From the NCBI RefSeq assembly GCF_014773365.1, contig NZ_JACWUN010000016.1, forward strand, positions 1 through 64,000: a stretch of DNA of 64,000 nt, given 5' to 3'. This DNA is from Pelovirga terrestris. GTDB lineage: Bacteria > Desulfobacterota > Desulfuromonadia > Desulfuromonadales > Geopsychrobacteraceae. Positions 19,175-30,639 of this stretch are shown one piece after another. Each line of letters starts with the position of its first letter. Position 1 is the first letter of the stretch. Made by a program: the position numbers and the translations under genes. The notes beneath the pieces are model-generated. The model had not been told where the DNA came from and made no database searches. It was given only the letters and a program-made list of their open reading frames with translations.

Positions 19175-19885
19175 GTGCTACGCACACTATTTTTTTATCT
19201 GGTTTTCTACCCCTGGACAGTGATTGCCCTGAGCATTGGCGTCTGCCTGTCCCTGTTCGGCCAGAATGTTGTTCACCGCTGGGGGATCCTGTGGGGACGC
19301 AGCTGTCTGTGGCTGGCGGGATTAAAGCTCAAGGTAACAGGAAGCGAAAACCTCACAGGTGATGGGCCGGCAATTTACGTCAGCAATCACCAGAGCAATT
19401 TTGACATCCCCTTGCTCTACGCCGGCCTGCCGATCCAGTTCCGCTGGATGGCCAAACAGGAACTATTCAACATCCCGCTCTTTGGACTGGCAATGAAAAG
19501 TAGTGGTTATATCCCGATTGACCGTTCCAATCGTAAAGAGGCGATGCGCAGCCTGACAGCGGCGGCCAGGCGGATTCGCGACGGGGTCTCCGTCATCATC
19601 TTTCCGGAAGGAACCCGCAGCGCTGACGGCACCCTGCAACCGTTCAAAAAAGGCGCACTGCTGTTGGCCGCCAAAGCCGGGGTACCGATTGTGCCCATGG
19701 CCATCCACGGCAGCCATCAGGTGCAGCCAAAGGGAAGTCTGCGTATCAACCCGACCCCACTGCTGCTGACCATTATGCCCCCGATTACTACTACCGGATT
19801 GAAGATGTCACACATCGATGAACTGACCGATCAGGTCCACGAGCGGATCGCCCGCTGTCTGGAAAGCCATGACCAACCCTGTTGA
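19175..19885 (+). CDS. plsC: 1-acyl-sn-glycerol-3-phosphate acyltransferase
   Basis: Makes phosphatidic acid from lysophosphatidic acid at the inner membrane. The 236-residue protein has an N-terminal membrane segment, the catalytic block NHQSNFD (about residue 70), substrate-binding FPEGTRS (about residue 142) and VPIVPMAIHG, in the order usual for PlsC. It uses a GTG start behind GGAAGGGG. The 3' end overlaps the next gene by 17 bp, so translation is probably coupled. Confidence 0.88.
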   Translation: MLRTLFFYLVFYPWTVIALSIGVCLSLFGQNVVHRWGILWGRSCLWLAGLKLKVTGSENLTGDGPAIYVSNHQSNFDIPLLYAGLPIQFRWMAKQELFNIPLFGLAMKSSGYIPIDRSNRKEAMRSLTAAARRIRDGVSVIIFPEGTRSADGTLQPFKKGALLLAAKAGVPIVPMAIHGSHQVQPKGSLRINPTPLLLTIMPPITTTGLKMSHIDELTDQVHERIARCLESHDQPC

Positions 19886-21557
19886 ACGTACCAGTGAAGA
19901 CGTCCGCCTGCTCCCCTTTGGCGGTTTTGGCGAAATCGGCATGAATCTGCTTGGCATCGAAACGCAGGGTAAAATTCTGCTGATCGATTGCGGATTGATG
20001 TTTCCTGAAGCGTACATGTTCGGCATCGACCTGGTGTTGCCGGACATCAGCGCCCTGGAGGAACGCAGTGCCGACATCATCGCCCTGATCCTGACCCATG
20101 GCCACGAAGACCACATCGGCGCCCTGCCCTTTTTATGGCAACGCCTCGGCTCTCCGGCGGTGTATGGCACCGGTCTGACCCTGGGATTGCTGCAGCGCAA
20201 GCTAAAAGAGCATGACCTCGACCAACGGGTTGAGCTGATTGAAATGATCCCACGCCGGCAGATTGATCTTTCACCCTTTGTGGTTGAACCTTACCGGGCC
20301 GCTCACTCCATCGTTGATGGCGTTGGGCTGGCGATCAGAACTCCGGCGGGGTTGATTGTCCACAGCGGCGACTTCAAGGTTGATCCAACCCCGGTCGACG
20401 GCAAAAACACCGATCTTGCCCGTCTGGCGGAATTTGGCGAGGAGGGCGTTCTGCTGCTGCTGGCTGATTCCACCAATGTCGAGAACGAAGGCTATACCCT
20501 GTCGGAAGGCACCGTCGGTAAGGTGCTGGAAGAAATCATCCCCCGTTGTCCGCAACGGGTTATCCTCTCGACCTTTTCCTCTAACATCCACCGGATCCAG
20601 CAGGTCGCCGATGCGGCCAGGCTGGCCGGGCGCAAACTGCTGATCAACGGGCGCAGCATGGTTGGCAATATCGCCGTTGCCCGCCAGCTCGGCTACCTCA
20701 CGATCCCCAATGAGCAATTTGTCGAGCTGCGCGATCTGCCCCATCTGCCGCCGGAAGAGGTGCTGATTATCACCACCGGCAGCCAGGGGGAGCCATTAAG
20801 TGCCTTGATGCGCATGGCCCTGGGGGATCACAAACAGATCCACATCGAACCGGGGGATACGGTCATCCTCTCCTCTAAATTTATCCCCGGCAATGAGAAG
20901 GCCATCAGCGACCTGATCAATCATCTCTACCGCCGTGGGGCTGAAGTCATTTACGAAAAAACCAGTGAAATCCATGTCTCCGGACACGCCAGTCGGGAAG
21001 AATTGAAGCTCTTGCAAAGCCTGGTCAAGCCGCGCTATTTCGTTCCGCTGCACGGCGAATACCGCCACCTGGTCAAGCACCGCCAACTAGCTATGGAGAT
21101 GGGGGTGGCAGCGGAAAACACCCTGGTCCTCGAAAACGGTCACGAGTTGATCATCAACGCCAGCGAACTCCGCCGTGGCAAACGGTTTGAAAGCGGCCGG
21201 GTGTTTGTCGACGGCAAGGGGGTCGGCGACGTCGGGGTCATGGAACTGCGCGATCGCCGCCATCTGGCCAACCATGGCCTGGTGATCCTGATGCTGGCGA
21301 TTAACCAGTCAACCGGTACAATCATCCAGGGTCCGGACATTTTTTCCAAAGGTTTTATCCCCGAAGAGTCTAACGATGGTGAAGCCTTGCTGGCAGAGGC
21401 CCGACAACGCGTCTGCGATCTGCTTAATGAACACAGCCTGGCCATGGTCGGTGACTGGGAGGAACTGCGGGTCGAAGTCCGCAAGGTACTGCGCCGTTTT
21501 TTCAACCGCACCATCGCCCGGCGTCCACTGATTCTGCCGGTCATTCTGGAACTCTGA
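19869..21557 (+). CDS. rnj: Ribonuclease J
   Basis: A 562-residue metallo-beta-lactamase/beta-CASP RNase. The metal site is LTHGHEDHIGALPF (about residue 74); beta-CASP motifs include DSTNVE, the SQGEPLSAL segment and HVSGHASREELKLLQSLVKP, with HGEYRHL near the C-terminal zinc ligands. RNase J combines 5'-exonuclease and endonuclease action in mRNA decay and rRNA processing. Its presence instead of a visible RNase E fits many deltaproteobacteria. It lies between plsC (17-bp overlap) and ftsK (1-bp gap). Confidence 0.92.
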   Translation: MTNPVERTSEDVRLLPFGGFGEIGMNLLGIETQGKILLIDCGLMFPEAYMFGIDLVLPDISALEERSADIIALILTHGHEDHIGALPFLWQRLGSPAVYGTGLTLGLLQRKLKEHDLDQRVELIEMIPRRQIDLSPFVVEPYRAAHSIVDGVGLAIRTPAGLIVHSGDFKVDPTPVDGKNTDLARLAEFGEEGVLLLLADSTNVENEGYTLSEGTVGKVLEEIIPRCPQRVILSTFSSNIHRIQQVADAARLAGRKLLINGRSMVGNIAVARQLGYLTIPNEQFVELRDLPHLPPEEVLIITTGSQGEPLSALMRMALGDHKQIHIEPGDTVILSSKFIPGNEKAISDLINHLYRRGAEVIYEKTSEIHVSGHASREELKLLQSLVKPRYFVPLHGEYRHLVKHRQLAMEMGVAAENTLVLENGHELIINASELRRGKRFESGRVFVDGKGVGDVGVMELRDRRHLANHGLVILMLAINQSTGTIIQGPDIFSKGFIPEESNDGEALLAEARQRVCDLLNEHSLAMVGDWEELRVEVRKVLRRFFNRTIARRPLILPVILEL

Positions 21558-21558
21558 T

Positions 21559-23838
21559 ATGAACGATAGAGAAACAACCGCTTTGACCGAGAACCGAATG
21601 CGTAAGGAGATCCTCGGCCTGGTGTGGCTGGCCTTAGGGATTTTTCTGTTGATCTGCCTGCTCAGTTACAGCAATGACGATCCTTCGTTCAATAACAACC
21701 TGCATCCGGAGCAGGTACAGAATCTGATCGGCGTCTTTGGTGCCCACCTGGCCGACCTGATGTACCAGACCTTTGGCCTGACCGCTTTGTTATGGCCGCT
21801 GGGCTGTCTGCATCTGGCGTGGCGCTGGCTCAAATTGAATGATATCCATTTTCGTATCACTCGCCTGATCGCTTTTCTGCTGATGCAGATCACCTTAGGG
21901 GCCTTGCTCGCCCTGCGTTTCAACAGTGTCCCGCTGTTTGGCCAGCGAATCGATGAAGCCGGCGGCACCCTGGGGCGGATACTGGTGCAGATATTGACCC
22001 ACTATCTCAATGTCGGTGGTGCGGCAATTGTGCTGATTGTTTTTTTCCTGGTGGCGCTGATCCTCTCGACCCGTTTTTCCTTTGTGCTGTTTATTGACGG
22101 CTTTCTCGATCGCTGGGGACGTCGGCTGGAGATGCGCCGGGAAGCACGGCGCGCACGCAGGGAACTGACAAATAAAAACCGCCAACAACGTGAGGAGAAA
22201 GGGCCGGCCATCATCACCAATGAGCCGAAAAACCTGACCCCATTGGCGCCGGGCAAAAAATCCAAAAAAAGAGTAGACGATAAAGAAGACCCTCAGGTCG
22301 CTTTTTCTTTTTTGGAAGCCAGTGGCGACTACCGCATGCCATCGGCCTCCCTGCTTGAGCACGATGGTGCTCCGGCCAAACCGATTGATCGCAACAGCCT
22401 GACCATGGCCGCGCGGATGCTGGAGAAAAAACTTCTCGATTTCGGGGTCGAAGGGGATGTGGTTGAGGTCAAACCGGGACCGGTGGTCACCATGTACGAA
22501 TTCTCCCCGGCGCCCGGCGTCAAGGTCAACAAGATCTCCAACCTCCAGGACGACCTGGCGATGGCGCTTCAGGCGGTCTCCATCCGGATCGTCGCCCCGA
22601 TTCCGGGCCGGGGCGTCGTCGGGATCGAAATCCCCAACAAGGACCGCGAAACCGTTTATCTTAAGGAAATCATCGACTCTGAAGCCTTCAACAAGCACGG
22701 TGGCAAGCTCCCCATGGCGCTGGGTAAGGATATCTTCGGCCAGGTGGTGGTATCCGATCTGTCACGCATGCCCCACCTGCTGGTCGCCGGTTCCACCGGT
22801 AGCGGCAAGTCGGTTTCCATCAATACCATGATCCTGTCCCTGCTCTACCGTGCCGCCCCTGAGGATGTCCGGCTGATTATGATCGACCCGAAAATGCTGG
22901 AATTGTCGATCTATGAAGGCATCCCCCATCTGCTCCTGCCGGTGGTGACCAACCCGAAAAAAGCCGCCTTGGCCCTGAACTGGGCGGTGCGCGAGATGGA
23001 ACGTCGGTACCAGCTGATGGCGGCCAAAGGGGTCCGCAATATCGATGGCTACAACCGTAAGCTCATCAAGGAGGCCAAGGATGCGGAAAGCCGCGGTCCC
23101 GAGCCGGAGCCGCAACTGGACCCCAACGAGCTGATGGACGAGCTGCCCCCCATCACCGCAGAAATCCCGCCGGAGGAGCTGGAACACGGCCACCTCCCCT
23201 ATATCGTCGTGATTGTTGATGAGCTGGCCGATTTGATGATGGTCGCCGGGCGCGACATCGAAGAATCCATCGCCCGTCTGGCGCAGATGGCGCGCGCAGC
23301 CGGGATCCATCTGATTCTCGCCACCCAGCGCCCGAGCGTCGATGTTATCACCGGTCTGATCAAGGCCAACTTTCCAACCCGGATTTCGTTCAAGGTGTTT
23401 TCCCGTATCGACTCGCGCACCATCCTCGATTCCATGGGCGCTGAAGCCCTCCTCGGTATGGGCGATATGCTCTTTCTCCCCCCCGGGGTCGGTTACCTGC
23501 AACGGGTCCACGGCGCCTTTGTTTCCGAACTGGAGGTGCAGCGCGTGGTAGAATTTCTCTCGCGCCAGGGCAAGCCCGAATATGACAAATCGATCCTCAC
23601 CACCCCGCCGGCTGCCAGCGAGCAGGCCGGCGAAGAGGACTACGACGACCTCTGGGATGATGCCCTTAAAATCGTCAGCGACACGCGTCAGGCTTCCATC
23701 TCCATGATTCAACGGCGTTTACGCGTCGGCTATAACCGCGCCGCCCGCATGATTGAAAAAATGGAGCAGGAAGGCATCGTCGGCCCCTCCGACGGCAGCG
23801 GCAAGCCCCGCGAGGTTCTCATCAGCAAGATCGAGTAG
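21559..23838 (+). CDS. ftsK: DNA translocase FtsK/SpoIIIE
   Basis: A 759-residue septal DNA pump. The N-terminus has four to five membrane segments (residues 20-180), followed by a short basic linker (RREARRARRELTNKNRQQR). The motor has Walker A VAGSTGSGKSVSINTM and Walker B YIVVIVDELADLMM, separated by an acidic, proline-rich loop (PEPEPQLDPNELMDELPP). The C-terminal gamma winged helix that reads KOPS sites is present (ASISMIQRRLRVGYNRAARM). The linker is much shorter than in E. coli FtsK, so this is the compact SpoIIIE-like form. Confidence 0.93.
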   Translation: MNDRETTALTENRMRKEILGLVWLALGIFLLICLLSYSNDDPSFNNNLHPEQVQNLIGVFGAHLADLMYQTFGLTALLWPLGCLHLAWRWLKLNDIHFRITRLIAFLLMQITLGALLALRFNSVPLFGQRIDEAGGTLGRILVQILTHYLNVGGAAIVLIVFFLVALILSTRFSFVLFIDGFLDRWGRRLEMRREARRARRELTNKNRQQREEKGPAIITNEPKNLTPLAPGKKSKKRVDDKEDPQVAFSFLEASGDYRMPSASLLEHDGAPAKPIDRNSLTMAARMLEKKLLDFGVEGDVVEVKPGPVVTMYEFSPAPGVKVNKISNLQDDLAMALQAVSIRIVAPIPGRGVVGIEIPNKDRETVYLKEIIDSEAFNKHGGKLPMALGKDIFGQVVVSDLSRMPHLLVAGSTGSGKSVSINTMILSLLYRAAPEDVRLIMIDPKMLELSIYEGIPHLLLPVVTNPKKAALALNWAVREMERRYQLMAAKGVRNIDGYNRKLIKEAKDAESRGPEPEPQLDPNELMDELPPITAEIPPEELEHGHLPYIVVIVDELADLMMVAGRDIEESIARLAQMARAAGIHLILATQRPSVDVITGLIKANFPTRISFKVFSRIDSRTILDSMGAEALLGMGDMLFLPPGVGYLQRVHGAFVSELEVQRVVEFLSRQGKPEYDKSILTTPPAASEQAGEEDYDDLWDDALKIVSDTRQASISMIQRRLRVGYNRAARMIEKMEQEGIVGPSDGSGKPREVLISKIE

Positions 23839-23955
23839 GGGCACGGCGCGCCCTGCCCCAGGTGCTCCGCCTTGACAGGGCAACGCATTTCTGCCAACTT
23901 CACAGACAATGAACAAAAGACTATAGTGAACGGCATTCATCAGTATGAGGTTTCT

Positions 23956-25020
23956 ATGCCACGCAAACCCCGCCTGGAAGACGATCAAATCATCTATAAC
24001 AGCATGCAGGCCATCCGCGGTATCCCCCAGGCCAAAATCGAATTCATGATGCAGAAAATCGGTGGGCCCTTCGCTGGAGCGTTCCGTCTGTCCGGCCCCT
24101 GGGGTGAGCGCTACTACTATATCAAGGTGGTACCACGCTTGACCGCCGATATCGCTGATCTGGTCATCCATCAACTCAAAACCTCGCCGGCGCCACAGAA
24201 TGCCGCACCGCTACTGGTCAGCAATTACATTTCCGCCAACCTGGCGGCAAAACTGCGCAAGAGCAAGATCGAGCACGCCGATTGTGCCGGCAATGTCTAT
24301 CTTGACCAGATGCCATTATACATCGATATCAGTGGCCGCAAGCATACGCCCAAACCGCCGACCGTCGATCGCCTGTTTCGTGCCAGCGGCTTGAAGCTGA
24401 TCTATCTGTTACTGCGCAACCGCAAAGCAGTCAACGCTACCTACCGGGCCCTGGCCGATGATGCCGGCATCGCTCTGGGAGCCATCGGCAGCCTGTTTGG
24501 CGAATTGGAAAAACGCGGCAACTTAATCCTGGACGAACAGGGTAAACGGCAACTGACTGCCGTCGAGGAGTTGTTACAACGCTGGCAGCTGGGTTACATC
24601 GAAACCCTGCGCCCGCGCCTGTTCCTGCAACGCTGCCGACTGGCTGCCGGTGACACGCCGGTCAGTCTGGCCCAACGGCTGAAACAGCTGAACGTCAGTT
24701 CGCAGATATTCATTGGCGGCGAGTTAGGTGCCGCTCTGATGACCCGGGGGTTTCAACCGCAATCGGCGGTGCTCTATCTGGAACCGGAGCAACAGCTCAA
24801 AACCATGCTGCAACTGCATCTGTCCGCCGACCCAGAGGGCGAAGTTACCCTGCTACAGACCTTTGGGCGCCAGTGCCGTTGGACCGGATTGCAACCGGAG
24901 GGACTGACCCTGGCCGACCCCTTGTTGACCTTTGCTGAACTCAATGATTGGTGCGATGATCAGCTGGCCATCCGGCTCTATCAGCAATATCTGACCCCGC
25001 GCTTTAACGATGACAAATGA
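23956..25020 (+). CDS. AbiEi-like winged-helix protein (type IV antitoxin-like family)
   Basis: A 354-residue protein whose middle part (ADCAGNVYLDQMPLYIDISG, then GLKLIYLLL and the wHTH-like YRALADDAGIALGAIGSL) resembles COG4861, a family annotated as AbiEi-like antitoxin. The C-terminal region (residues of about 225-350) would correspond to the AbiEi C-domain. ATG 23956 has GAGG at good spacing; an earlier in-frame start at 23872 lacks one. The normal partner, an AbiEii nucleotidyltransferase toxin, is absent; instead the gene overlaps a RuvC-like nuclease gene by 4 bp. Assignment rests on motif recall. Confidence 0.6.
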   Translation: MPRKPRLEDDQIIYNSMQAIRGIPQAKIEFMMQKIGGPFAGAFRLSGPWGERYYYIKVVPRLTADIADLVIHQLKTSPAPQNAAPLLVSNYISANLAAKLRKSKIEHADCAGNVYLDQMPLYIDISGRKHTPKPPTVDRLFRASGLKLIYLLLRNRKAVNATYRALADDAGIALGAIGSLFGELEKRGNLILDEQGKRQLTAVEELLQRWQLGYIETLRPRLFLQRCRLAAGDTPVSLAQRLKQLNVSSQIFIGGELGAALMTRGFQPQSAVLYLEPEQQLKTMLQLHLSADPEGEVTLLQTFGRQCRWTGLQPEGLTLADPLLTFAELNDWCDDQLAIRLYQQYLTPRFNDDK

Positions 25021-25520
25021 TCGAGAAGCGACCTGTGTCCTCTACCGATCGGCCGGCCCCGCATCTACTGGCCGTTGATGTCGGCCTGCACACTGGGCTT
25101 GCGCTATACCGTCACGACAGCCGGCTGCTGTGGTATCGTTCCCACCATCTGGCGGACCAGCAGAAACTGAAACGCCTGATCGCCACATTATTGCGCAGCA
25201 CCCCCCTGCCTACCCATATTTATCTGGAAGGCGGCGGCCCTCTGGCCGAACTCTGGCAACGCGAAGCCCTCAAACTGGAGTGCGTTTTTGTCCAATTGGA
25301 TGCCGGCCAATGGCGCAAACAACTCTTTTATGACCGGCAGCATCCAAGCGGTCGCGTCGCCAAACAGCAGGCACTGAAAATGGCGATTGAGGTTATCAAC
25401 CGGTTAAGTCACAAAAAACCAACGGCACTGCGGCACGATACCGCTGAGGCGATTCTGATCGGGCTCTATGGATTACTTGATCTGGGCTGGCTTACCCACT
25501 GGCCCCCGAAAAAGGAGTAA
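25017..25520 (+). CDS. RuvC/RNase H-fold nuclease-like protein
   Basis: A 167-residue protein of no named family that I can give. It shows the RNase H-fold layout: first strand LLAVDVGLHTGLALY (Asp, then the Gly-x-x-Thr-Gly turn), second acidic site in IYLEGGGPLAELW, and a last helix HDTAEAILIGLYGL whose His-Asp/Glu resembles the HDxADA end of RuvC resolvases. A Lys/Gln-rich helix (KQQALKMAIEVINRL) lies between, again RuvC-like. The start overlaps the stop of the AbiEi-like gene (ATGA), implying coupled expression. An active nuclease is likely but unproven. Confidence 0.6.
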   Translation: MIEKRPVSSTDRPAPHLLAVDVGLHTGLALYRHDSRLLWYRSHHLADQQKLKRLIATLLRSTPLPTHIYLEGGGPLAELWQREALKLECVFVQLDAGQWRKQLFYDRQHPSGRVAKQQALKMAIEVINRLSHKKPTALRHDTAEAILIGLYGLLDLGWLTHWPPKKE

Positions 25521-25525
25521 CATTG

Positions 25526-26722
25526 ATGGCACAATATGATTTTATTGTTATTGGTGGTGGCATTATCGGTCTGGCCACCGCCCGCCAGTTGCAGCAGGAT
25601 CATCCTGGGAGCACAATCGCGGTTCTGGAAAAAGAATCCCGGCTGGCCCTCCATCAGACCGGGCGCAACAGCGGCGTTATCCATGCCGGGGTCTATTACA
25701 CGCCGGGCAGCCTCAAAGCAAAGTTCTGTCGTGAAGGAAACCTGGCCACCAAGGAATTCTGCCGCGAACATAAGATCCCTTTTCGTGAAACCGGCAAGCT
25801 CTTGGTGGCGACGACGCATGCCGAACTGGGGCGGATGCAGGACCTGCTCGAACGCTGCCGCCAGAACGATATTCCCACTGAGGTGCTCAATCAGCAGCAG
25901 TTGCAGGAGAAGGAACCCAATGTCGTCGGCCTGGGGGCAACCTGGGTGCCGTCAACCGGGATCGTCGACTATGCCCGGATCACTCACCAGCTGGCAGCAC
26001 TGTTTACCTCGGCCGGGGGGGAGATTCACACCAACTGCCAGGTGATCGGCATCAGGGAGAATCAAGGTGTGGAGATCACATCCAGCATCGGTCGTTTTTC
26101 CGCCCAATTTGTCGTGGGTTGCGCTGGTCTGCACTCCGACCGTCTGATCCGCATGCTGGGCAAGGAGCCGGAGTTTCGGATTTTGCCGTTTCGTGGCGAA
26201 TACTTCCAACTGCCGGTCGATAAACGCCGGATCGTCAGCCATCCGATCTACCCGATCCCCAATCCGGAATTGCCCTTCTTAGGCATTCACCTAACCCCGA
26301 TGAGCGACGGCTCCCTCACTGTCGGCCCTAACGCCACCCTGGCGTTGGCCCGCGAAGGCTACAGCCGCTGGTCAATGAACCTGCGCGACCTGATCGACAT
26401 GTTCAGCTACGCTGGGCTCTACCGCCTGATTGGGACATATCCCGGGCCAACCCTGAGCGAGCTGAAAAATTCCCTCTATCGCCCCGGCTACCTCAAACTG
26501 GCTCAGCGCTACTGTCCGCAGATTGAGCTCAAAGATCTCTGCCCCTACCCGTCGGGGGTTCGCGCCCAGGCGGTTCGCGCCGACGGCAAAACCCTCGATG
26601 ATTTTCTCTTTGTCAAAGGAGAGCACAGTCTGATTGTCGGCAACGCTCCGTCCCCCGCGGCGACCTCGGCCCTGCCCATCGCTCGTCACATCTGCGAGCA
26701 GGTTAAAGAACTGCTTGGCTGA
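25526..26722 (+). CDS. lhgO: L-2-hydroxyglutarate oxidase/dehydrogenase (LhgO type)
   Basis: A 398-residue FAD oxidoreductase of the DAO family. The dinucleotide fold is DFIVIGGGIIGLATARQL; the LhgO hallmark HQTGRNSGVIHAGVYYTPGS follows, then a second conserved block in PFLGIHLTPMSDGSLTVGPN, with RAQAVRADGKTLDDFLF near the C-terminus. It oxidises L-2-hydroxyglutarate, passing electrons to quinone or oxygen. ATG 25526 is chosen since AAAGGAG lies 8 bp ahead. It probably shares a transcript with the two genes before it (5-bp gap). Confidence 0.88.
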   Translation: MAQYDFIVIGGGIIGLATARQLQQDHPGSTIAVLEKESRLALHQTGRNSGVIHAGVYYTPGSLKAKFCREGNLATKEFCREHKIPFRETGKLLVATTHAELGRMQDLLERCRQNDIPTEVLNQQQLQEKEPNVVGLGATWVPSTGIVDYARITHQLAALFTSAGGEIHTNCQVIGIRENQGVEITSSIGRFSAQFVVGCAGLHSDRLIRMLGKEPEFRILPFRGEYFQLPVDKRRIVSHPIYPIPNPELPFLGIHLTPMSDGSLTVGPNATLALAREGYSRWSMNLRDLIDMFSYAGLYRLIGTYPGPTLSELKNSLYRPGYLKLAQRYCPQIELKDLCPYPSGVRAQAVRADGKTLDDFLFVKGEHSLIVGNAPSPAATSALPIARHICEQVKELLG

Positions 26723-26776
26723 CAGTGACACGCCCCGGACAACAGCAGGCGGGAGGAGAAGAACGATCTGGAAGGA

Positions 26777-29215
26777 TTAGGTCAGGGGAATAATCTGATC
26801 GGTAATTTCGGTAAAAGCGACATCATGGCTGATCAAAAACAACTGATCGTACCAGTGTTCGGTGACCTCTTCCTTACCGACATCAATAGCCCTGAAGGCG
26901 TGGGCCAGGTTTTCCCGGCGGGTGACATCGAGGTTGGACGTTGGTTCGTCAAAGAAAGCAATACGGGCGCCGATCGTCTGCAACATGGCCAAACGCAGAG
27001 CCACCACGGCACTCATGATCTGACCGCCCGAGAGCTGATCATCGGCTCGTTCACGCAGATCATCATCGACCATATCGCGTAGCACAATCTGATAGTTGTC
27101 ACCCCAGGCCAGCTCCTCATCGACTTCGGAGATGATTCGATAGATTCGATTGGCGCGCTGGCTGATTTCCTCCCGGAAGCGTTCAGAGAGGTGCCCGGAG
27201 ACATTCCGAAACACCCGGTTACGCAGGAATTTGACCAGTTCATCCTTCTCCTTATAGGTTGTAATCTGACCCCGTTTGGCGGTGATTTCCCCTTCAATGT
27301 TCCTGAGCTTGTCGACCTCAACGGCAAGACGAGCGACATCTACGACCAGTCCCTTTATCTTCTGGCCGAGGGCGCTGACCCCACCCCAGAGGGTCTCTTT
27401 CTGCCGGCGCAGCCTTTCATGTTCGGCGGCATCATACTCCCTAACCGCCTCACTGAAGGCCGTTTCTTTTGCCGCCAGATCATCCTGCAACTGCTTGAGA
27501 TGCTTGGTGAATTTTTCCAGATCAGTCCGGCGATGAGCCAGCTCATGCGCCTGCTGCTGATTGGCCAGATAACGATCACGATCTTCCTGGTAGTGTGCCT
27601 TGTTTTTCTCGGCCTCTTCAATATCTGATTGTAACCGGCGGTAGGTATCCAACACCTTTTGTTTTTCATCGAGTTGCTGCTGCGCGGCGGTTTGTTCCTG
27701 TTGCCATCCCGCCAGACTTGCAGCCTTGAGCTCGTTTACTGTGCGACGTTCCGCCAGCTTGACCAGCTGCGAATCCAGCCCTTCCAGTCTGACCGCAACC
27801 GCCTTGAGCTGATCGTTGGCATCACTGGCCGTCTTCTCTTCCCGTTCGAGCCTGAGAACGTCGTCCTGAAGACTTTGGCGCTCCTGGTCAAGTCGAGAGA
27901 ACTTGGCTGAGAACAGATCGGCTGGAGGGCTTGTGGCGATATTGAGACAGGGCTCCTGGAAGAAAGGGCATACCCCCTCAGCAAGTTTTTCGCTCCCCTC
28001 CTCCAGTGCCACCCGGCGTCCTTCGAGTAGCCCAAGCTGCTTGCGCACCCCTTCGAGGTTCACCTGGATGGCAGGCAGTCGCTGCGCCAGGGCCTTTTGC
28101 TGATCATCGAGGGACAGCGCCTTCCGGCTTGCGGTCAGCGCCTGTTCTTCGGCAGCCAGTTCTTCGCGAGTTCGTTGGGTCGTAAGGGTCTCAATCTTTA
28201 ACCGTTCGGTTAACCTGGCAAGCTGGTTTTTGAGATCAGCGGCTTCGTGTTCCTGTTGCCGCTGAATCTTGACCTTCTCCCGCAGTTCATTCAGCTGCTT
28301 CTCGACCTGTTCGTAGGCTTTTTTGCCGGGGGTGGTCTCTGCGATGATCTTGTGAGCTTTTTCCGCCTCGTCGACCAACAGCTTCTGCTTGCCGATCATC
28401 TCGTTACCGTTACTGATCCGTTCCTTGAGGTTTTCGACCTCTTTTTCAAGCCCCTTGATATCCTTTTCACGCTGATCCACCGTAAGGAGAACCCCTTCAA
28501 GGTCGTTGAGCTGTTGCTGCTGCAACGCCAGTTCCTGCTCGGCCTGCACCAGATCCTGCTGCGCCGCTTGATGTTCCTCCCTTTTTGCCGGCAGCTCAGC
28601 CACCTGGCTTTGAAGCGGGGCGATAGCGCTTTCCAGGGCCTCCACCCTGGCGTTGATGGCACTGGTCAAGGCCTTGGTCTCGTTGAAGGTCTTACGCCAG
28701 GTATCAATGCCGAGAATCTCGTCAAACTTGTCACGCCGCCGGGAGGGCTGTTTGATGACAAAAGGACCAAGGAAGTCGTGCTGGAATGGGCCGATCACCA
28801 GTTCAAACTGTTCTGCCAGCGACCGGACCGATCTCAGCTCCAACAACTCCTTGAGGCGCCCTTCAGTCTCTTTACTGTCTTTGTGTTCCTCCACTTCAAA
28901 AACGCCTCCGACCTCTTTGGCCAGGAGCCACTTAGACGGCGCACCGACGGTGCGGCTGACACGATAGCGTTCGGCAGCCGCGCTTTGAAAGACAACGGCA
29001 ATTTCTCCCCGCCTGGCCCCGATGGTCACAAAGCGCTCGACATTGCCGACAAAGCTTTGCGCATCGACCCCGAAAAGGGTATAACCGATCGCTTCAAAGA
29101 TGGTGCTTTTGCCCACCCCATTGGGACCGGAAAGGACGTTGATACCGGAGGAGAAGGTCAGCTCGGTGTCGCGGTGCGACTTGATATTTTTAAGATGGAT
29201 GGAGAGAATCTGCAT
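26777..29215 (-). CDS. SbcC/Rad50-like DNA-repair ATPase
   Basis: An 812-residue SMC-like ATPase. Walker A GPNGVGKSTIFEAIGYTLFG lies near residue 31; long coiled coils fill the middle; the C-terminal lobe has the ABC signature LSGGQ (about 727) and Walker B AFFDEPTSNLD. At the apex (about residues 408-416) is CPFFQEPC, in the place of the Rad50 zinc hook but with six residues between the cysteines instead of two. With SbcD it would open and trim DNA ends or hairpins. It overlaps the SbcD-like gene by one base. Shorter than E. coli SbcC (1048 residues). Confidence 0.8.
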   Translation of the reverse strand: MQILSIHLKNIKSHRDTELTFSSGINVLSGPNGVGKSTIFEAIGYTLFGVDAQSFVGNVERFVTIGARRGEIAVVFQSAAAERYRVSRTVGAPSKWLLAKEVGGVFEVEEHKDSKETEGRLKELLELRSVRSLAEQFELVIGPFQHDFLGPFVIKQPSRRRDKFDEILGIDTWRKTFNETKALTSAINARVEALESAIAPLQSQVAELPAKREEHQAAQQDLVQAEQELALQQQQLNDLEGVLLTVDQREKDIKGLEKEVENLKERISNGNEMIGKQKLLVDEAEKAHKIIAETTPGKKAYEQVEKQLNELREKVKIQRQQEHEAADLKNQLARLTERLKIETLTTQRTREELAAEEQALTASRKALSLDDQQKALAQRLPAIQVNLEGVRKQLGLLEGRRVALEEGSEKLAEGVCPFFQEPCLNIATSPPADLFSAKFSRLDQERQSLQDDVLRLEREEKTASDANDQLKAVAVRLEGLDSQLVKLAERRTVNELKAASLAGWQQEQTAAQQQLDEKQKVLDTYRRLQSDIEEAEKNKAHYQEDRDRYLANQQQAHELAHRRTDLEKFTKHLKQLQDDLAAKETAFSEAVREYDAAEHERLRRQKETLWGGVSALGQKIKGLVVDVARLAVEVDKLRNIEGEITAKRGQITTYKEKDELVKFLRNRVFRNVSGHLSERFREEISQRANRIYRIISEVDEELAWGDNYQIVLRDMVDDDLRERADDQLSGGQIMSAVVALRLAMLQTIGARIAFFDEPTSNLDVTRRENLAHAFRAIDVGKEEVTEHWYDQLFLISHDVAFTEITDQIIPLT

Positions 29216-30462
29216 CAGTTGCCCTCCGGATCAAGCAGGGCCAGCAATTCATCACCGTCGACATCACCTTTCTGCACCGCATTCTTCAGGGCGATGGCGA
29301 GCCTAATCAGCTCTTCCTCACGCCCCTGGTATTCGCTGCCGGACGTGATCAGACCATGCAGAACCTCCTGTTCGATCTCTTCCAAGCTTTTATTGACTCC
29401 GTTCACCTCGTCGGAGCTGCTGACGAGGGAGAGATGGTTCTTGATCTCGACATGCAATGGGGCGACCAATTCTTCCAGCACCAATTTTAACCGTTCACGC
29501 CCCAACTCAAAGGGATGAAACCCGACGCGACCCACCAGCTTTAACTCGAGCAGCGGTTGACGTTCATCACCGGAATGGTTAACCCTGGCGACAATCTGTT
29601 CGCAGACCCCGGCGAGGGCCTGATTAACATTCTCCGCTCCGCCCAGATCAATCGTTTCAACCAGCATCGGGCGCGGCGAGGTGTTTCTGAAGGTGGGGAT
29701 AAACTCGCCGTTCTCGAACGAGACATGGTAGTACCCCTTAGGGTACTTCTCTTCACCAAAATTGACACGTTCAGGAGATCCGGGATTAAAGGCGTATGGC
29801 TTGCCCCCTGCAGTTTCGATGACATAGGGCTTGTGACCGTGACCGAGGGCGACATAGCCGAACCTTTCGGCCAGAGGAAGAGCCTCTTCCAGTTTCATGT
29901 TACCGATCTCGACCGGGGAATATTTCCAGATGCCGACATGGAAAAGCAGCAGGTTGTTCACGGTAGTAACCGCAGTGCAGATCCGCTCCACATGATGACC
30001 GGCCTGGGCACCGATATAGCCAAGACCATAAATATTGACCCCGTCAATCTCGATATGCCCGCCCATACCGGTCGTTTCATCGAAGGGATCGAAACGGTAG
30101 GCGCCATCAGCGGTGCGCGCAGGCCGCAGCAGCTTGATGTAGCCCATCTGCGACAAGGCTTCCATCCACGAAATATTATCGCGGCGGTGAATCCAGTCGT
30201 GGTTACCTTCGATGGCGATACAGGGGATGCCGGCATCCTTAAGGGGCTGAAGGGTTTCAATGGTGCGGGCAAAGGTTTTCGGCAGAATCTGACCGACATG
30301 GAACAGATCGCCACCAATCACCAGCGCATCGACCTGCTCGGTGATGGTGTCGGCACAAATACCCGCCAAACAGGCAAAGAAGTCGTCGTAACGTACACTC
30401 TCAGCGGGAGAATTTCGGTAACTTTTCCCCAGGTGAATATCGGATGTGTGGATAAATTTCAT
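29215..30462 (-). CDS. SbcD/Mre11-like DNA-repair phosphoesterase
   Basis: A 415-residue calcineurin-like nuclease. Metal ligands appear in order: FIHTSDIHLGKSY, VIGGDLFHVG, IEGNHDW, LLFHVGIW and ALGHGHKP. The C-terminal part (about residues 300-415) is the Mre11/SbcD capping and ATPase-binding region. The start at 30462 precedes the conserved first strand; a 5' extension to 30495 is in frame but lacks a ribosome site. It is followed by the SbcC-like gene with a TGATG overlap, giving the standard nuclease-ATPase pair. Confidence 0.85.
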   Translation of the reverse strand: MKFIHTSDIHLGKSYRNSPAESVRYDDFFACLAGICADTITEQVDALVIGGDLFHVGQILPKTFARTIETLQPLKDAGIPCIAIEGNHDWIHRRDNISWMEALSQMGYIKLLRPARTADGAYRFDPFDETTGMGGHIEIDGVNIYGLGYIGAQAGHHVERICTAVTTVNNLLLFHVGIWKYSPVEIGNMKLEEALPLAERFGYVALGHGHKPYVIETAGGKPYAFNPGSPERVNFGEEKYPKGYYHVSFENGEFIPTFRNTSPRPMLVETIDLGGAENVNQALAGVCEQIVARVNHSGDERQPLLELKLVGRVGFHPFELGRERLKLVLEELVAPLHVEIKNHLSLVSSSDEVNGVNKSLEEIEQEVLHGLITSGSEYQGREEELIRLAIALKNAVQKGDVDGDELLALLDPEGN

Positions 30463-30639
30463 GGTACCTGCAGCGTGGTAAGAGGGGATCCTCATCAGAA
30501 AGGCAGGGTATCATCTGCCCGCTACTGGTGCAATTCATTGCTGAACGCGCACACTTGAAAGTCCTTTCTAACCAAACAACGATTTAATACAAGGACTGCG
30601 GTTAGATCTTGCGATCGTGAAAGGATTTTTCATTAAAAC

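Follow-up and report, generated by a model that had tools for sequence, protein, structure and literature searches.

The described systems that come closest to the two genes considered here are, on one side, the AbiE type IV toxin-antitoxin systems, in which AbiEi is the antitoxin and AbiEii the toxin; for the branch made up of COG4861 and COG4849, the former is described as going together with the latter (PMC3985639, excerpts). On the other side stand the nucleases and related proteins of the RNase H fold, among them RuvC, the poxvirus and MOC1 Holliday junction resolvases, and RuvX/YqgF. In MOC1 the metals are bound by D115, D117, E174 and E257, K229 is critical and is said to be conserved in RuvC, and an aspartate stands at the position of H253 in some RuvCs (excerpts of PMC11183143). 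According to a survey from 2005, no more than seven of the genomes that it covered are without YqgF (PMC1193525).

The window, by which we mean the whole 64,000 nucleotide stretch of Pelovirga terrestris DNA that was analysed, carries two adjoining genes, here called A and B. A sequence-only reading of this DNA had described them as overlapping by 4 bp, and the coordinates bear this out, both genes lying on the + strand in the following surroundings.

21559-23838, + strand: ftsK, upstream of gene A (PF01580, E-value 5.5e-73)
23839-23955, + strand: space between ftsK and gene A, with a sigma-70-like match at 23899-23927 and a 12 nt palindrome at 23839-23858
23956-25020, + strand: gene A, 354 amino acids, ATG start
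25017-25020, + strand: ATGA overlap of 4 bp, gene A stop and gene B start (from the sequence)
25017-25520, + strand: gene B, 167 amino acids, ATG start
25526-26722, + strand: lhgO, L-2-hydroxyglutarate oxidase, 5 bp downstream of gene B (NF008726, above the cut-off)

We think it likely that A and B are separate units that were brought together by gene loss, gene B being an accessory junction-type nuclease and gene A an orphan AbiEi-type protein. Purifying selection acts on both genes in the genus (dN/dS is 0.04-0.06 for gene A and 0.10-0.17 for gene B, with several of the dS values near or above 1), and their open frames are thus not a matter of chance. The 4 bp overlap means little when taken alone, since packing is equally tight elsewhere in the window, both in the run of genes at 19175-23838 and in the pair at 26777-30495. 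At most, the overlap may couple translation of gene B to that of gene A, in one genus. A homologue of lhgO also lies directly 3′ of gene B in three sister genomes (L041, L042 and L044), and gene B is packed as tightly with lhgO as it is with gene A. The space upstream of gene A allows no conclusion about a regulator site, since the palindrome, which directly follows ftsK, is a lone one in DNA for which the four members of the genus give a poor alignment, and the promoter match is at the level of chance (one sigma-70-like match in 23700-26850, with a mean of 1.2 in shuffled sequences). Scans of the window for tRNAs and Rfam families gave no match. The pair at 26777-30495, just downstream of lhgO and on the - strand, encodes SbcC/Rad50-like and SbcD/Mre11-like proteins, and its two genes overlap by 1 base.

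The association of A and B was followed through 277 genomes of the class (300 had been asked for), where matches at an E-value of about 1e-74 or better were counted as A type, and 20 more genomes have remote A-like matches. The A type is present in 63 genomes and gene B in 47, with both in 19, A only in 44 and B only in 28; co-occurrence is thus rare, yet it is above chance (odds ratio 2.9, P 0.002, kinship ignored). The two genes touch in four of the 19 genomes that have both, and these are the four of the window's genus and no others. In five further genomes they lie 3.6-4.0 kb apart, so that they are within 4 kb of each other in 9 of the 19, all from one family. The remaining ten have them on different contigs (nine genomes with fragmented assemblies, in some of which, at least G105 and G107, linkage may be masked by contig ends) or 1.08 Mb apart (one genome). 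Gene B stands beside gene A in 4 of the 37 relatives with gene A.

The five sister genomes share the order A, PF09818 ATPase, ClC channel, B, and the window's genus has no strong PF09818 match in any of its four genomes; in two of these there are matches elsewhere with E-values of about 6e-4. Since an ATPase and a ClC channel stand between A and B in the sister genomes, gene loss is the most likely origin of the overlap, and the simplest history would be one in which both intervening genes were lost in the window's genus. On that history the case shows that a 4 bp overlap can come from the loss of intervening genes and need not signal a functional pair. The tight pairing of a regulator with a nuclease, as the sequence-only reading had it, is not supported by this distribution, given that both genes occur together in only 19 of the 277 genomes, are adjacent in the window's genus only and are parted by two genes in five sisters; they are most likely not a matched toxin-antitoxin pair. 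They may share a role in family f1, where both sit in an operon-like run.

It is conceivable that gene A is the transcriptional regulator of a family operon consisting of A, the PF09818 ATPase, the ClC channel, B and lhgO, and that B serves the process of that operon. Gene A does adjoin the ATPase in 15 of the 60 relatives (15 of the 37 that have gene A), with gene B following in five of these, but gene B is missing from the other 10, the window's genus is without the ATPase and the channel at this place, lhgO follows gene B in some genomes only, and no shared process is apparent for the gene products. We therefore consider this arrangement an unlikely explanation and keep to that of separate units.

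Gene A matches the AbiEi_2 profile PF09952, which we take to correspond to COG4861, at residues 199-327 (E-value 4.8e-10, 40.4 bits, cut-off 21), and this antitoxin domain was found in all 13 of the aligned orthologues. The predicted model (pLDDT 85.7, built from 13 sequences) contains a winged helix at about residues 137-213 (fold match with Z up to 8.5), so that the earlier description of an AbiEi-like winged-helix protein holds. A fold match of the N-terminal part (residues 9-117) to XisH, a protein with a restriction-endonuclease-like fold and a Glu-x-Lys-type motif, is weak (Z 7.1) and, being middling, serves as a lead. When the model was compared with the PDB by Foldseek no match at an E-value of 0.001 or better was obtained, and the PADLOC scan of gene A matched no described defence protein. 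Residues 232-353, the AbiEi_2 end of the model, resemble the aminoglycoside nucleotidyltransferase ANT(2'')-Ia (Z 7.8, 121 residues, 7 % identity; likewise middling and a lead), an enzyme of the same general class as the AbiEii toxin.

The AbiEii toxin is missing beside gene A, as had been noted from the sequence: none is found in the window, and the sole PF08843 match of the genome is on another contig (C42). By eye, no AbiEii neighbour of gene A was seen in 17 loci from 17 genomes, nor was PF08843 found near gene A orthologues among the 60 relatives (a by-eye comparison of contigs, in which some may have been missed at contig ends). As a positive control, remote A-like proteins were taken with their flanks in 14 regions; the neighbours of ten were scanned and all ten had PF08843 AbiEii, nine of them above the cut-off. 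The neighbour of the A-like protein in L155 resembles that in L154 (by eye), L153 and L156 showed no AbiEii neighbour, and in L157 the A-like protein was missing from the gene calls. The region G000:C42:100000-106000 (L145) of this genome holds what looks like an ordinary AbiE pair, an AbiEii gene next to one that is AbiEi-like by eye.

Gene A is thus like the AbiE systems of the COG4861/COG4849 branch in having an AbiEi_2 domain and in aligning, for the greater part of its length, with proteins found next to AbiEii in related genomes, and unlike them in that no AbiEii was found adjoining it. It also lacks a Glu-x-Lys motif that is present in the N-terminal part of 7 of the 11 toxin-linked A-like relatives, namely the following.

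L143:2274-3323: A-like antitoxin with Glu-x-Lys, beside AbiEii
L144:1498-2544: A-like antitoxin with Glu-x-Lys, beside AbiEii
L149:2373-3446: A-like antitoxin with Glu-x-Lys, beside AbiEii
L151:2404-3489: A-like antitoxin with Glu-x-Lys, beside AbiEii
L152:2048-3169: A-like antitoxin with Glu-x-Lys, beside AbiEii
L154:2386-3438: A-like antitoxin with Glu-x-Lys, beside AbiEii
L155:1970-3019: A-like antitoxin with Glu-x-Lys, beside AbiEii

Gene A is retained widely in its family and is found in 37 of the 60 relatives. It is probably a domesticated antitoxin, looking like an antitoxin-family protein whose toxin has been lost and which is now a retained chromosomal gene; DNA binding by the predicted winged helix has probably persisted, and the protein may regulate its own operon. 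The ftsK gene is upstream of gene A in 9 of the 17 loci, directly in the window, L040, L057 and L058 and within about 4 kb in L037, L038, L045, L053 and L055; in the remaining loci ftsK is not upstream or the contig ends. In three other families gene A is accompanied by larB or by pgpA-cinA (L057, L058 and L060; names assigned by eye). In three genomes an AbiEi-AbiEii pair is directly followed by an SRAP/YedK-like gene (L149:4291-4959, L150:4419-5096 and L151:4334-5002, by eye).

Gene B has no match in Pfam, NCBIfam or PADLOC at E-values up to 1. The canonical RuvC profile PF02075 matched neither gene B nor any of the 14 aligned members at E-values up to 1, and the same was found for the RuvX/YqgF profile PF03652. 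There is a weak match to the phage Holliday-junction-resolvase family PHROG 1770 (E-value 0.0049), and 7 of the 14 aligned proteins likewise match this phage family weakly (best E-value 0.0011). A phmmer and a profile search of the PDB sequences returned unrelated weak matches and no resolvase, and so gave no sequence link to the solved resolvases. Weak Pfam matches of single relatives of gene B (YAcAr at E-value 0.031, the best, and OrfB_IS605 at 0.09) were taken as chance.

The AlphaFold2 model of gene B, built from 14 sequences, has a mean pLDDT of 87.1 and a pTM of 0.84. With VIA-align the highest score is to the fowlpox Holliday junction resolvase (Z 16.2, 129 residues, 1.9 A), followed by maize MOC1 (ZmMOC1, 15.1), Deinococcus radiodurans RuvC (14.9) and E. 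coli RuvC (14.6); the lowest resolvase ahead of the first non-resolvase is Ydc2 (12.8), after which comes the mitochondrial elongation factor TEFM (12.4), with RuvX at 10.5. The resolvase matches thus have Z 12.8-16.2 over 120-139 residues, and the best Foldseek match is D. radiodurans RuvC (E-value 4.8e-7). On this model we are confident that gene B has a RuvC-type RNase H fold, in agreement with the RuvC-like layout recognized earlier.

The putative active-site residues were placed by motif and by order along the sequence, not by residue-level superposition. Among the homologues with a residue at the site, Asp21 is conserved in 47 of 47, Glu71 in 50 of 50, Lys116 in 47 of 47 and Asp141 in 46 of 46, and Glu144 is conserved in 46 of 47, with aspartate in the other, so that the acidic residues on which the sequence-only reading relied are kept in relatives. 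Its terminal His-Asp helix also stands, in that His140 and Asp141 open a helix at 140-156, although His140 is less conserved (43 of 46) than its neighbour. The D-x-x-E at 141-144 resembles the D-x-x-D in the last helix of RuvC, and an hhalign comparison of gene B with canonical RuvC pairs these two motifs in an alignment that is not significant (probability 1 %, E-value 0.053, 36 columns). The second aspartate of MOC1, D117, answers to Gly23 in gene B by position after the first aspartate (excerpts of PMC11183143). Canonical RuvCs of this group, like gene B, carry glycine two places after the first aspartate. Gene B is therefore like the RuvC, poxvirus and MOC1 resolvases, to which its highest fold scores belong, in consisting of one RNase H-fold domain, about 150 residues long, whose conserved acidic residues and lysine follow the expected order; unlike them, it has a conserved Glu-Gly-x-Gly...Trp run from Glu71, has no PF02075 or meaningful Pfam match and is found in addition to a canonical RuvC.

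We propose that gene B is a lineage-specific chromosomal nuclease of the RuvC/RNase H superfamily, most likely cutting branched DNA (junctions, forks) in recombination or repair. Catalysis would follow the usual metal-ion mechanism, in which Asp21, Glu71, Asp141 and Glu144 hold the metals while Lys116 lies close to the scissile phosphate; cleavage of junctions, dimerisation and a role in repair are what the model would lead one to expect. Gene B probably represents a family that is new, though its fold is a known one and so, probably, is its function class (DNA processing, by prediction). The toxin-antitoxin, defence or DNA-processing unit that had been suggested for the pair thus survives as predicted DNA processing by gene B alone, and the paired toxin-antitoxin reading is not supported. 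The gene defines a family of RuvC-fold nucleases with a conserved active site that is unnamed in Pfam, NCBIfam and PADLOC; in the literature covered no prior description of it was found, nor any report of a RuvC-like Holliday junction resolvase in Desulfuromonas.

Gene B is present in 15 of the 60 relatives, 47 of the 277 class genomes and 15 of 395 genomes drawn from the phylum (400 asked for), one of the last being a weak match with eight stops. It is not the canonical RuvC of its genome, since 57 of the 60 relatives, among them all 15 carriers of gene B and this genome (G000:C6), have a PF02075 match at another place; gene B is accessory, carried besides the canonical RuvC. A single-sequence scan of named genomes found four near relatives, in metagenome-assembled genomes titled Geobacteraceae, Deltaproteobacteria and Desulfuromonadales. 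Single-sequence searches did not find the gene in plasmids or phages, and IMG/VR yielded no relative (19 stretches matched a pattern and none was confirmed); the possibility that it is a mobile-element gene was set aside on these grounds.

In the gene B tree (47 rows, 17 of 44 inner branches well supported) the family labels require 18 changes, as against 32.6 when shuffled and a minimum of 14, a pattern in keeping with descent that was mostly vertical and marked by many losses. L050, which belongs to the window's family, stands on a long branch outside that family's clade, and remnants of gene B with stop codons are seen in G111, in G076 and as a second match in G238. Gene B has no constant neighbour, there being 35 clusters upstream and 37 downstream among 48 loci each; 51 loci entered the counts, some of them fragments, and G028 and G247 each supplied two.

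RuvX/YqgF offers another possible connection, since PF03652 was found in none of the 277 class genomes, this one included, as against 214 of the 395 phylum-draw genomes and 10 of 14 control genomes; the literature covered held no paper on the absence of YqgF in deltaproteobacteria. The gene B family is thus carried besides RuvC in bacteria where RuvX/YqgF was not found, and gene B could be a partial stand-in for it in rRNA maturation or junction processing, RuvX/YqgF being, as gene B is, a small single-domain RNase H-fold protein. In the phylum draw RuvX is present in 3 of 14 gene B carriers and in 211 of the 381 others (P 0.012, kinship ignored), and the families that carry gene B outside the class are two without RuvX (f46 and f33) and one with it (f26). 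The avoidance outside the class is, however, not significant (RuvX in 3 of 8 carriers, P 0.23, leaving out the weak stop-ridden match in G533, which has RuvX), and 230 of the 277 class genomes have neither gene, so gene B is not a required replacement. The fold of gene B is, moreover, nearer to RuvC and the pox resolvase (Z up to 16.2) than to RuvX (Z 10.5), and gene B differs from RuvX in having no PF03652 match and in its patchy distribution. It is very unlikely that gene B acts as such a stand-in, and the wider proposal, that it takes over part of the RuvX/YqgF work in a class that has lost RuvX as a third kind of bacterial RuvC-fold resolvase, is equally unlikely.

Also very unlikely is a new toxin-antitoxin or defence module in which B is a nuclease toxin that replaces AbiEii and A its antitoxin or repressor, for although A and B are adjacent or overlapping in all four genomes of the genus, A belongs to an antitoxin family and B has conserved nuclease residues, 28 of the 47 class genomes with gene B are without the A type and 24 without any A-like protein, the neighbours of gene B shift, two other genes part A and B in sister genomes, and there is no PADLOC match and no occurrence of gene B in plasmids, phages or IMG/VR (scans that a novel system could still escape), and we set it aside on linkage, on the occurrence of gene B without A and on the intervening genes.

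Separate units, with gene B acting on branched DNA, remain the preferred explanation; a point against it is that gene B, in loci read by eye, lies near recombination or repair genes in some lineages only: the order is ftsK-B-larB in L113 and B-larB-larC-pgpA-cinA in L046, with recA beyond, recD2 and SRAP genes are near gene B in L098 and L103, and dinB-like genes in L098 and L131. Genes at the neighbour loci were called with purpose-written callers, which in G+C-rich loci missed or misoriented some genes; examples of genes so affected are the PF09818 ATPase in L042 and in L053 and gene B in L037, L047 and L048. Genome G247 has gene B in two almost identical copies on two contigs (L105:6389-6856 and L106:6413-6880), each with a similar reading frame downstream.
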